Origin: an uncultured Pseudokineococcus sp.
Lineage (GTDB): Bacteria; Actinomycetota; Actinomycetes; Actinomycetales; Quadrisphaeraceae
Assembly (NCBI RefSeq): GCF_947499845.1
Contig: NZ_CANMPM010000009.1
Location: forward strand, 62,001 to 126,000
Direction of reading: 5' to 3'
DNA length: 64,000 nucleotides
The notes under the pieces are model-generated. The model saw only the letters and a program-made list of their open reading frames with translations, was not told the origin of the DNA and did not search any database. A program made the translations under genes and the position numbers. Within the stretch, counting starts at the first letter, position 1, and each line of letters opens with the position of its first letter. Of the stretch, positions 25,525 through 37,669 are shown piece by piece.

Positions 25525-26649
25525 GTGGGGCAGGTGCTGCACCTGACCGGCCGGGTCCTGCACGGTCCCGGCACGGGGTCCGACGAGGACGCCGTGCAGG
25601 GCCTGTGGGTGCTCGACGGGCGGGTCAGCACGTCGCCGCCCGCGGGGGACCACGACGTCACCGCGCTCGAGGGGTGGGTCGTCCCCGGGCTCGTCGACGC
25701 GCACTGCCACATCGGCCTCGGCGCGGGCGGCGAGGTCGACCGGGCCACGGCCGAGGAGCAGGCGCGCACCGACCGCGACGCCGGGACGCTGCTCGTGCGC
25801 GACGCCGGGTCCCCGGCCGACACGCGGTGGGTGCAGCAGCGGGAGGACCTGCCCCGGCTCGTGCGGGCGGGCCGCCACGTCGCCCGCACGCGCCGCTACC
25901 TGCGCGGCTTCGCCGAGGAGGTCGAGCCGCCGCAGCTCGTCGACGAGGTGCGCCGCCAGGCGCGCCGCGGCGACGGCTGGGTCAAGGTCGTCGGCGACTG
26001 GATCGACCGCGAGGCCGGCGACCTCGCCCCCTGCTGGTCGCGGGAGGACCTCGCGGCGGCGGCCGCGGCCGCCCACGCCGAGGGGGCGCGCATCACGGCG
26101 CACGTCTTCGGCGCGGAGGCGCTGGCCGACGTCCTGGCCGCGGGCTTCGACGGGGTGGAGCACGCGACGGCGATGGGGCCGGACGACGTGACGCTCATGG
26201 CCGAGCGGGGGACCGCCGTCGTGCCGACGCTCGTCAACATCGGCACCTTCCCCGACATCGCGGCACGGGGCGAGGGCAAGTTCCCCCGGTACGCGGCCCA
26301 CATGCGGCGGCTGCACGCGCGCCGCCGCGAGGCGGTCGCGCTGGCCCACGAGGCGGGCGTCCCGCTCTTCGCAGGCACCGACGCCGGCGGCACGCTGCCG
26401 CACGGGATCCTCGCCGACGAGGTGGCCGAGATGGCGGCCGCCGGGCTCGGCCCCGCGGCCGCGCTCGACGCGGCGTGCTGGTCGGCGCGGCGGTGGCTCG
26501 GCCACCCGGCCCTGGAGGAGGGCGCGAGCGCCGACCTCCTCGTGCTGCCCGAGGACCCGCGGCGCGACGTCGCCGTGCTCGCCGCGCCGTCCGCCGTCGT
26601 CCTGCGCGGGCGGCAGGTCGCCCGGGCCGGACGGCGTCTGGCACACTAG
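25525..26649 (+). CDS. Amidohydrolase family protein
   Basis: The 374-aa protein belongs to the metal-dependent amidohydrolase superfamily (imidazolonepropionase/prolidase-like branch). [10 protein letters not shown] carries the HxH metal motif (about 53-62). [11 protein letters not shown] and GVEHAT supply further His ligands, and AGTDAGG the catalytic Asp. The C-terminal [10 protein letters not shown] is the usual beta-sandwich return. The substrate is unknown. It starts with GTG 7 bp after ffh, with no clear ribosome site. It separates ffh from the rpsP operon, a placement I believe is shared by some relatives. Confidence 0.85.
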
Positions 26650-35620: not shown

Positions 35621-36685
35621 GTGGTCGCGGGGACGGGGGAGCGCGCGCCGCGCCCGGCTGCTCCCTCCGCGGGGTCCGGGCCGCCGGCGGGACCTGCGCC
35701 CGCGTCGGGGTCCGGTGCCGACCCCGGGGCGGACGAGCGCGCCGCGCGCCTCCTGGAGGCCTTCGCGGAGCACCTCGCGGTCGAGCGCGGTCGCTCGCCG
35801 CACACCGTGCGGGCCTACGTGGGCGACGTGCGCGACCTCCTGGCCGCAGCGCGGAGCCGCGGCGGCGGCGACCCGGCCGACGTCGACCTCGCGCTCCTGC
35901 GGGCGTGGCTCTCGGGCGAGGCCCGCGCGGTCCCCGACGCCGTGGCCGGCGCCCGGGGTCCCCGTGCGGCGCCGGGGCCGGCGGCGCGCGCGACGACGGC
36001 GCGCCGGGCGGCGTCGGCGCGCGCCTTCACCGCCTGGCTGGCGCGCACCGGCGCCGCGGGGGCGGACGCCGGCGTGCGGCTGCGCGCGCCCCGCTTGTCG
36101 GGCGCGCTGCCGGGCGTGCTCGCGGCCGGGGCCGTCGCCCAGGTCCTCGCGGCCGCCGAGGAGGCGGCGGAGGAGGGCGGCCCCGTGGCCCTGCGCGACG
36201 CCGCGGCGCTCGAGCTCCTCTACGCCACGGGCGTCCGCGTGGGCGAGCTCGTCGGCCTCGACGTCGACGACGTCGACCGCTCGCGCTGGACCGTCCGGGT
36301 GATGGGCAAGGGCGCCAAGGAGCGCGTCGTGCCCTTCGGCGCGCCCGCCGACGCGGCGCTCGGACGCTGGCTCGGACGCGGGCGTCCCGCCCTGGCCGGG
36401 CCCCGCAGCGGCTCCGCGCTGCTGCTCGGCGCCCGCGGGGGGCGCCTCGACCAGCGCGCCGTCCGAGGCGTCGTGGAACGGATCAGCGGGAAAGTTGTGT
36501 CACGACACGTGACTCCACATACGCTGCGTCACAGCGCGGCGACACACCTGCTCGACGGGGGGGCTGATCTGAGGAGCGTCCAGGAGCTGCTGGGGCACGC
36601 CAGCCTGGCCACCACCCAGCTCTACACGCACGTCTCCGTCGAGCGGCTCCGCTCGAGCTACCACCAGGCGCACCCCCGTGCCTGA
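35621..36685 (+). CDS. xerC: Tyrosine recombinase XerC-type
   Basis: The 354-aa protein has a SAM-like N-terminal core-binding domain (LLEAFAEHLAVERGRSPHTV) and a full catalytic set: Arg in LLYATGVRVGELVGL, Lys in MGKGAKERVVP, H-x-x-R in THTLRHSAATHLLDGGA-like TPHTLRHSAATHLL, His in LLGHASLATTQLY and the nucleophile Tyr in LYTHV. It resolves chromosome dimers at dif with FtsK. The start is uncertain: GTG at 35621 has GGGAG upstream, while GTGs at 35582 and 35603 are possible. Codons from about 36476 to 36575 are strikingly A/T-ending, unlike the rest of the gene. Confidence 0.9.
   Translation: MVAGTGERAPRPAAPSAGSGPPAGPAPASGSGADPGADERAARLLEAFAEHLAVERGRSPHTVRAYVGDVRDLLAAARSRGGGDPADVDLALLRAWLSGEARAVPDAVAGARGPRAAPGPAARATTARRAASARAFTAWLARTGAAGADAGVRLRAPRLSGALPGVLAAGAVAQVLAAAEEAAEEGGPVALRDAAALELLYATGVRVGELVGLDVDDVDRSRWTVRVMGKGAKERVVPFGAPADAALGRWLGRGRPALAGPRSGSALLLGARGGRLDQRAVRGVVERISGKVVSRHVTPHTLRHSAATHLLDGGADLRSVQELLGHASLATTQLYTHVSVERLRSSYHQAHPRA
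36495..36532 (+). promoter_or_regulatory. Candidate internal promoter/operator within xerC
   Basis: The low-GC island in xerC contains TTGTGT (36495-36500), TACGCT (36520-36525, 19-nt spacer) and an inverted repeat GTCAC-GACAC-GTGAC (36499-36513), with another GTCAC at 36528. These could drive the downstream sigma-factor gene. The reading is inference; the spacer is longer than ideal. Confidence 0.35.
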
Positions 36686-36757: not shown

Positions 36758-37669
36758 GTGACCCAGCGCACGCCCTCGCCGGGCCGCCCCGCCCCCGCAC
36801 GGGAGCGAGCGGCCGCGGGCGCCGCCGCCGGCGGGAGCGACGAGCAGCCCCGGACCGACGACGGCGTCGAGGTGGAGGAGCCGGCCCGCGCCCTCACACC
36901 CGCGGAGGAGGCCGAGGCCGCCGTCCGCGAGCTCTGGGTCGCGTTCAAGACGACGGGGGACGCCGCCGTCCGCGAGCGGCTGATCCTCCACTACTCGCCG
37001 CTGGTCAAGTTCGTCGCCGGTCGCGTCGGCGTGGGCCTGCCCTCCAACGTCGAGCAGGCGGACCTCGTGTCCTACGGGGTCTTCGGCCTCATCGACGCCA
37101 TCGAGAAGTACGACCTCGAGCGCGCCATCAAGTTCGAGACGTACGCCATCCAGCGCATCCGCGGCGCCATCATCGACGAGCTGCGCGCCCTCGACTGGAT
37201 CCCGCGGTCGGTCCGCAGCAAGGCCCGCGAGGTGGAGAAGACCTACGCCGAGCTCGAGGCGCGCCTGCACCGCACGCCCACTGAGCCCGAGGTCGCGGCG
37301 CAGATGGGCATCCCGCTGAAGGACCTGCACCACATCTTCAGCCAGGTCTCCTACGTCAACCTCGTCGCGCTGGACGAGCTGCTCTCCGGCGGCGAGAAGG
37401 GCGACAGCCTCTCGCTGGGGGACACGCTCGAGGACACGCGGGCCGAGGACCCGGTGATGGCCTTCGAGGGCGAGGAGACGAAGTTCCTCCTCGCCCGGGC
37501 CATCGACCAGCTCTCCGAGCGGGAGAAGATCGTCGTCACGCTCTACTACTACGAGAACATGACCCTCGCCGAGATCGGGCGGATCCTCGGCGTCACGGAG
37601 TCGCGCATCTGCCAGATGCACTCCAAGGCCGTCCTGCAGCTGCGCACCAAGCTCGCCGACGTCAGCTGA
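36758..37669 (+). CDS. whiG: RNA polymerase sigma factor, WhiG/FliA family
   Basis: The 303-aa protein is an RpoD-class group 3 sigma factor. Region 2 is [20 protein letters not shown] to [14 protein letters not shown] and [23 protein letters not shown]. Region 3 is [20 protein letters not shown]. Region 4 is [20 protein letters not shown] with the helix-turn-helix [14 protein letters not shown]. In Streptomyces WhiG triggers sporulation; in motile actinobacteria the orthologue drives flagellar genes. No flagellar gene lies in the window, so which role applies is open. An unconserved 45-residue N terminus precedes it. GTG start with GGAGGAGAG. Confidence 0.92.

Follow-up and report, generated by a model that had tools for sequence, protein, structure and literature searches.

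Genes at the locus and the A/T-ending codon island

The window, a stretch of 64,000 nucleotides from a Pseudokineococcus genome, contains a tyrosine recombinase gene whose next 3′ neighbour on the same strand is a sigma-factor gene. An island of codons ending in A or T lies near the 3′ end of the recombinase gene.

35621–36685, plus strand: xerC-type tyrosine recombinase gene, host of the island; best NCBIfam match TIGR02224 (recomb_XerC), start codon uncertain
36758–37669, plus strand: WhiG/FliA-type sigma-factor gene, the proposed target; matches NF004935 (WhiG) and TIGR02479 (FliA_WhiG)
36464–36571, plus strand: island of 36 codons, 13 of them with A or T in third position, as read directly from the sequence

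The host gene is named xerC from its best match and from synteny. Its product scores 277 bits against TIGR02224, under the curated cut-off of 335, but this is still the top-scoring NCBIfam model. The sigma-factor product scores 421 bits against NF004935 (cut-off 343) and 283 bits against TIGR02479 (cut-off 190).

The A/T-ending codons of the island are CGA, GAA, AAA, GTT, TCA, CGA, ACT, CCA, CAT, CGT, ACA, GCT, and GAT. Even here, 23 of the 36 codons end in G or C. Genome-wide, A/T-ending codons make up 1.8% of the total, as counted over 374 genes called by a simple purpose-made gene caller on 430 kb of the same genome. Among these genes xerC ranks first for A/T-ending codons in windows of 36 codons, and second in windows of 12, 20, 30, and 44 codons. 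An island of rare codons in xerC had been proposed from the sequence-only reading of this DNA, and both the codon frequency and the ranking bear it out. A similar island, with 12 of 30 codons ending in A or T, occupies the 3′ end of a gene outside the window (locus L151, contig C9, approximately 171251–172235, minus strand) and ranks alongside the xerC island in the same comparison.

The island contains two promoter-like hexamers, both within the xerC coding frame.

36497–36502, plus strand: proposed −35 element, GTGTCA; GTGTCA in the related genome G002 and GCGTCA in G003
36520–36525, plus strand: proposed −10 element, TACGCT; TACGCT in G002 and TACCCT in G003

The proposed layout is GTGTCA-N17-TACGCT (36497–36525), with the 17-nt spacer found in the window, in G002, and, behind GCGTCA, in G003. 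With spacers of 16–19 nt allowed, the −35 element matches TTGACA at four of six positions in the window, three in G003, and four in G002. The sequence-only reading had paired TACGCT with TTGTGT. Both hexamers are present, at 36520–36525 and 36495–36500 with a 19-nt spacer, but GTGTCA is the better −35-like hexamer. The distance it gave to the sigma gene, about 230 bp, agrees with the position of TACGCT, 238 bp ahead of the GTG start at 36758. A generic scan for sigma-70 promoters and terminators returned no site at its threshold on either strand.

Conservation in the genus and rarity of TANNNT within genes

Four Pseudokineococcus genomes were compared, and the locus is present in three of them: the window genome, G002, and G003. 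In the fragmented assembly of the fourth, G001, the search for the xerC locus returned only a xerD-like gene and weak matches. The three species share a core within the island.

36499–36534, plus strand: core conserved at the nucleotide level in the three species, GTCACGAnAnGTnACTCCnCATACnCTGCGTCACAG; the last bases of AGC vary

At conserved residues, G003 keeps 12 of the 12 A/T-ending codons of the island, compared with 0/6 in the rest of xerC and 17/146 in the other genes of the window. The corresponding values for G002 are 5/10, 1/7, and 16/129. The synonymous-site comparison suggested earlier as a check on the island thus finds its A/T-ending codons held in the genus. The G/C-ending codons of the island are identical to those of G003 in 15 of 23 cases, near the background of 71%. 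Codon identity over the whole island is likewise unexceptional, the best windows ranking about 2,920 of 13,430 for G003 and 3,807 of 12,859 for G002. Only the A/T-ending codons are exceptional, in that they keep an A or T where the genome otherwise loses these letters. A core promoter would be shorter than the island: the two hexamers leave its A/T-ending codons at 36464–36496 and 36542–36568 unaccounted for, and G002 has lost part of these.

This pattern bears on several explanations of the island. Recombination with a lower-GC xer gene could have brought in a segment whose foreign codons have not yet been adjusted, and the concentration of A/T-ending codons in the catalytic region would suit such an origin. 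However, a young import should match G003 at both codon classes, and in an old one both classes should have eroded, whereas the match is complete for one class (12/12) and at background for the other (15/23). An obvious donor, the genome's own xerD, is also without the island. Recent recombination, as raised in the sequence-only reading, therefore fits poorly, and we regard an imported segment as very unlikely.

Codons as rare as these in the genome might instead make the ribosome pause around the catalytic H-x-x-R motif and so aid folding. The xerD paralogue of the genus encodes the same motif with G/C-ending codons and has no island, and rare codons at this place are not common to relatives. 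Moreover, the letter itself is retained in G003, not rarity alone. Translational pausing is for these reasons an extremely unlikely cause.

An overlapping coding sequence or other minus-strand element would also hold silent letters in place. The conserved CAT and TCA codons form the start and stop of a six-codon frame on the minus strand, running from 36520 down to 36500, which reads M-W-S-H-V-S-stop, M-W-S-D-V-S-stop, and M-G-S-D-L-S-stop in the three species. Against a coding function stand its length of only six codons, the state of the other five frames over 36464–36580, none of which is open throughout in the window except where short, and the outcome of the generic scan, which found no promoter-like site on the minus strand. 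The frame is probably a chance consequence of the held CAT and TCA codons, and we give an overlapping element almost no credence.

The hexamer TACGCT belongs to the TANNNT type, which is strongly depleted within genes of this genome. In the 430 kb analyzed, 124 copies of TANNNT lie outside the called genes and 14 lie within them, in 372 kb of called coding sequence on both strands. The densities are 1.066 and 0.019 per kb and strand, respectively, a difference of about 56-fold. Upstream of a called gene, within 150 nt and on the same strand, 92 copies are found. Control patterns with shuffled letters show a far weaker bias (85 outside versus 66 inside, and 68 versus 46). In the window TANNNT occurs ten times over both strands and seven times on the plus strand, and TACGCT at 36520 is the only one of these seven with a −35 match of at least four of six positions at 16–19 nt. 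It is also the single TANNNT between 35621 and 36757, that is, from xerC to the sigma gene, and G003 and G002 each have a TANNNT at the corresponding position. A second TANNNT inside a called gene of the window, TAGTGT at 26643 on the minus strand, may mark another embedded promoter.

The motif GTCAC is repeated within the core at spacings of 10 and 18 bp. All three species have it at 36499 and 36527; at 36509 it is present in G002 and G003, and the window reads GTGAC. The arrangement is a possible direct-repeat operator. A hairpin, GTGTC-AC-GACAC, was noticed by eye and rejected, as it is not retained in G002. The GTCAC repeats raise the alternative that the island is the operator of a regulator that controls the sigma gene, rather than a core promoter. 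In addition to the shared repeats, conservation runs through the spacer (the CGA and ACT codons), beyond what −35 and −10 elements need, and in Streptomyces whiG is directly repressed by BldD, according to the passages available from PMC13189361. A palindromic form of this operator, the inverted repeat GTCAC-GACAC-GTGAC, had been put forward in the sequence-only reading. The repeat is indeed present at 36499–36513, but its arms are not kept complementary: the right arm is GTGAC in the window and GTCAC in both G003 and G002. The palindrome is thus not conserved in the genus. Nor is there a regulon of strict copies, since a 17-letter core pattern with at most two mismatches occurs at three places in the window's own genome, compared with two for the reversed control. 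An operator would also leave unexplained both the unique TANNNT and the parallel site in relatives described below. An operator in place of a promoter is therefore unlikely, but the two could coexist at the island.

A TANNNT site in xerC of relatives linked to the sigma gene

Outside the genus, many xerC genes carry a TANNNT at another position, 81 bp downstream of the Pseudokineococcus −10 element. It is formed by the T of a GCT codon in the motif G-H-A-[ST]-L together with the following A.. CT. Further downstream, relatives often have a start codon of the sigma gene nested in xerC.

36601–36606, plus strand: −10 site of relatives (GCT A.. CT); here GCC AGC CTG, the site being lost
36659–36664, plus strand: nested sigma start site of relatives (T-ATG-A); here TAC CAC, the start being absent

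The discovery set comprises 110 xerC loci, 30 from relatives and 80 named. Outside the genus, 35 of them have an adjoining sigma gene and 71 have none detected; three loci scored as lacking the gene hold fewer than 800 bases downstream. Locus L050 repeats L002 and was omitted from every count outside the genus. Sigma-linked loci show a peak of A/T-ending codons at 36551–36610, about 2.3 times the expectation at GC3 of at least 0.85. The peak is due mostly to the one GCT codon, and is absent from loci without the sigma gene. TANNNT is found at 36601–36606 in 27 of the 35 loci with a sigma gene, compared with 0/57 loci without one at GC3 above 0.7 and 1/71 of all such loci. The 14 loci without a sigma gene and with GC3 of 0.7 or less, which were excluded from the codon-peak, 0/57, and silent-letter counts, add one TANNNT (L118) and one GCT without TANNNT (L063).

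For validation, 296 genomes of the class were searched with the sigma protein. The search gave 104 matching genomes including the window's own, and 89 of the other 103 were examined. Three of the 89 genomes were already in the discovery set, leaving 86 new loci. A xerC gene accompanies the sigma gene in 58 of them. For the remaining 28, the 1.5 kb examined contains no xerC, and 27 of these belong to family f37. The site is present in 55/58 loci, or 54/57 without L224, which is identical to discovery locus L057. Discovery and validation together give 81/92 sigma-linked loci with the site (82/93 with L224, which was still counted in the silent-letter enrichment, GCT background, nested-start, family-span, and exception counts below). 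The xerC-sigma loci cover 23 families, and at least one genome has the site in 22 of them. In f37, by comparison, the gene pair has been broken up: all 27 genomes have a WhiG-type sigma gene with no xerC within 1.5 kb upstream (examples are among L225 to L254).

At the other alanines of these xerC genes the share of GCT is 7.1%, and at the equivalent alanine of xerD paralogues it occurs in 0 of 20, where GCC or GCG is used; 17 of these 20 paralogues come from genomes with the sigma gene. Parsimony on a tree of XerC proteins gives 13 changes in sigma-gene presence, of which 11 fall on branches with a GCT change, as counted from one parsimony resolution with midpoint rooting, in which the taxa are not independent draws. 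For the relatives' site, a −35 element matches the consensus at three of six positions or fewer at any of five spacings. Other silent letters at 36593–36610 also differ between loci with and without the sigma gene. GGT (41/82 versus 9/57), CTC (70/82 versus 17/46), and GCA (30/69 versus 0/33) are enriched with it, and GTG is avoided (1/81 versus 24/56), which suggests further promoter or operator contacts. A BldD-type palindrome was also looked for by eye at this site and was rejected since only a half-site fits.

An ATG at 36660, inside xerC and in frame with the sigma gene, is present in 66/93 sigma-linked loci and in 63/82 of those with the −10 site. TAT at 36659 occurs in 62/93 loci with the sigma gene and in 9/57 without it. 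In most loci among the matches listed, a stop in CTGA lies just upstream and closes the sigma frame, which rules out an earlier start for the sigma gene. An intergenic promoter is impossible at loci with the nested start, which makes a site inside xerC the natural place for the promoter.

Eleven sigma-linked relatives are without the canonical site. Three of them (L256, L257, and L077) have TAGCGT 108 nt ahead of the xerC end. L008 has two TANNNT between xerC and the sigma gene, and L255 has several, but its GC content is low. The other six (L005, L058, L066, L081, L093, and L105) have no TANNNT in the final 300 nt of xerC or from there to the sigma match.

The three Pseudokineococcus species have themselves lost the relatives' site, which reads GCC AGC CT, and have the island at −162 instead. 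Relatives with ordinary codons at the island and the sigma gene kept, which the sequence-only reading had named as counting against a function, do exist outside the genus, but most of them carry the site 81 bp downstream. Pseudokineococcus thus appears to have moved its promoter upstream after the older one was lost, a turnover inside the reading frame. The residue at 36521 is threonine (PHTLRH), whose codon contributes an A and a C to the −10 hexamer. Outside the genus, 9 of 164 loci have threonine here, and none of the nine has the sigma gene. This absence from sigma-linked relatives, set against its presence in the xerD paralogue of the genus, is a further point in favor of an imported segment.

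These comparisons lead to a broader model, which we consider somewhat better than an even proposition. The end of xerC would be an old overlap module of the class, in which silent bases of the last 30 recombinase codons maintain a promoter and a ribosome-binding site for the developmental/flagellar-type sigma gene as well as its start codon. After loss of the canonical −10, a lineage would re-create a TANNNT nearby in frame, 81 bp upstream in Pseudokineococcus, where a change from Ala/Gly to Thr would have supplied the A and C, and about 27 bp upstream in two f31 genomes and one Actinotalea. The promoter would thus hop within the coding frame.

The proposed promoter and known systems

We take the island to be, most probably, a promoter embedded in xerC from which the housekeeping RNA polymerase holoenzyme transcribes the next gene, that of the WhiG-type sigma factor. 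Among the options offered by the sequence-only reading, this one is favored by three findings: the genus conserves particular bases, TANNNT is rare within genes, and xerC of relatives has a parallel sigma-linked site. The polymerase would bind through a weak −35 element, GTGTCA, and a TANNNT-type −10 element, TACGCT, separated by the 17-nt spacer, and transcription would be expected to start near 36532. The rest of xerC would be copied into the sigma mRNA as a long leader up to 36758, and the sigma gene would in this way be expressed apart from xerC. Since most of its bases would fall on third codon positions, the promoter would show itself through codons that this genome seldom uses. We infer both the start at the island and the sigma factor that reads it from sequence comparison. 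The conserved spacer may leave room for a bound regulator.

If the promoter is real, a silent third base in a housekeeping recombinase gene has been fixed over many actinobacterial families as part of the promoter of a neighboring sigma gene, one that controls development or motility. The locus would be a clean example of regulatory DNA shaping codon choice and a warning against recoding such genes. It would also suggest an inexpensive search for promoters where GC content is very high: because TANNNT is so rare in genes here, each in-gene copy is a candidate.

A search of the literature, with most subscription journals outside its reach, returned no pertinent report on whiG together with xerC, none on whiG in an overlap with a tyrosine recombinase gene, and none on intragenic promoters and synonymous codons in actinobacteria. 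A sigma gene driven from inside its upstream gene is known. The whiG-xerC case was not found in the literature searched, and its comparative support is unusually clean.

WhiG is controlled by BldD (PMC13189361) and by the anti-sigma factor RsiG, which holds the WhiG protein (PMC8325347). The downstream gene of the window belongs to the same WhiG family, but the available passages of these two sources make no mention of a whiG promoter inside xerC. The module is absent from Streptomyces if, as is probable, this is family f37: in none of the 27 f37 genomes examined does xerC lie within 1.5 kb of the sigma gene. Mapped start sites in S. lividans have −10 TANNNT and −35 TGAC elements, as given in part of PMC6742748.

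The closest parallel lies in gammaproteobacteria, where the main promoter of rpoS is located in the coding sequence of the upstream gene nlpD, and where a mutation at −12 of the rpoS promoter of Pseudomonas fluorescens creates TAGCCT (passages of PMC11838912). Here too a sigma gene would have its promoter within the upstream gene, and the hexamer TAGCCT is also found in xerC of several Kineosporiaceae relatives. The two cases differ in their genes, phylum, and regulator, and the rpoS promoter was proven by expression assays, whereas the one proposed here is deduced from conservation.

In mycobacteria, silent codon changes that create a TANNNT within a gene start transcription, and TANNNT is depleted in coding sequence (passages of PMC10653884). 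The same depletion is found in the genes of the present genome. The mycobacterial sites described in those passages are by-products of artificial recoding, whereas the site in xerC appears to be one kept by selection over many families.
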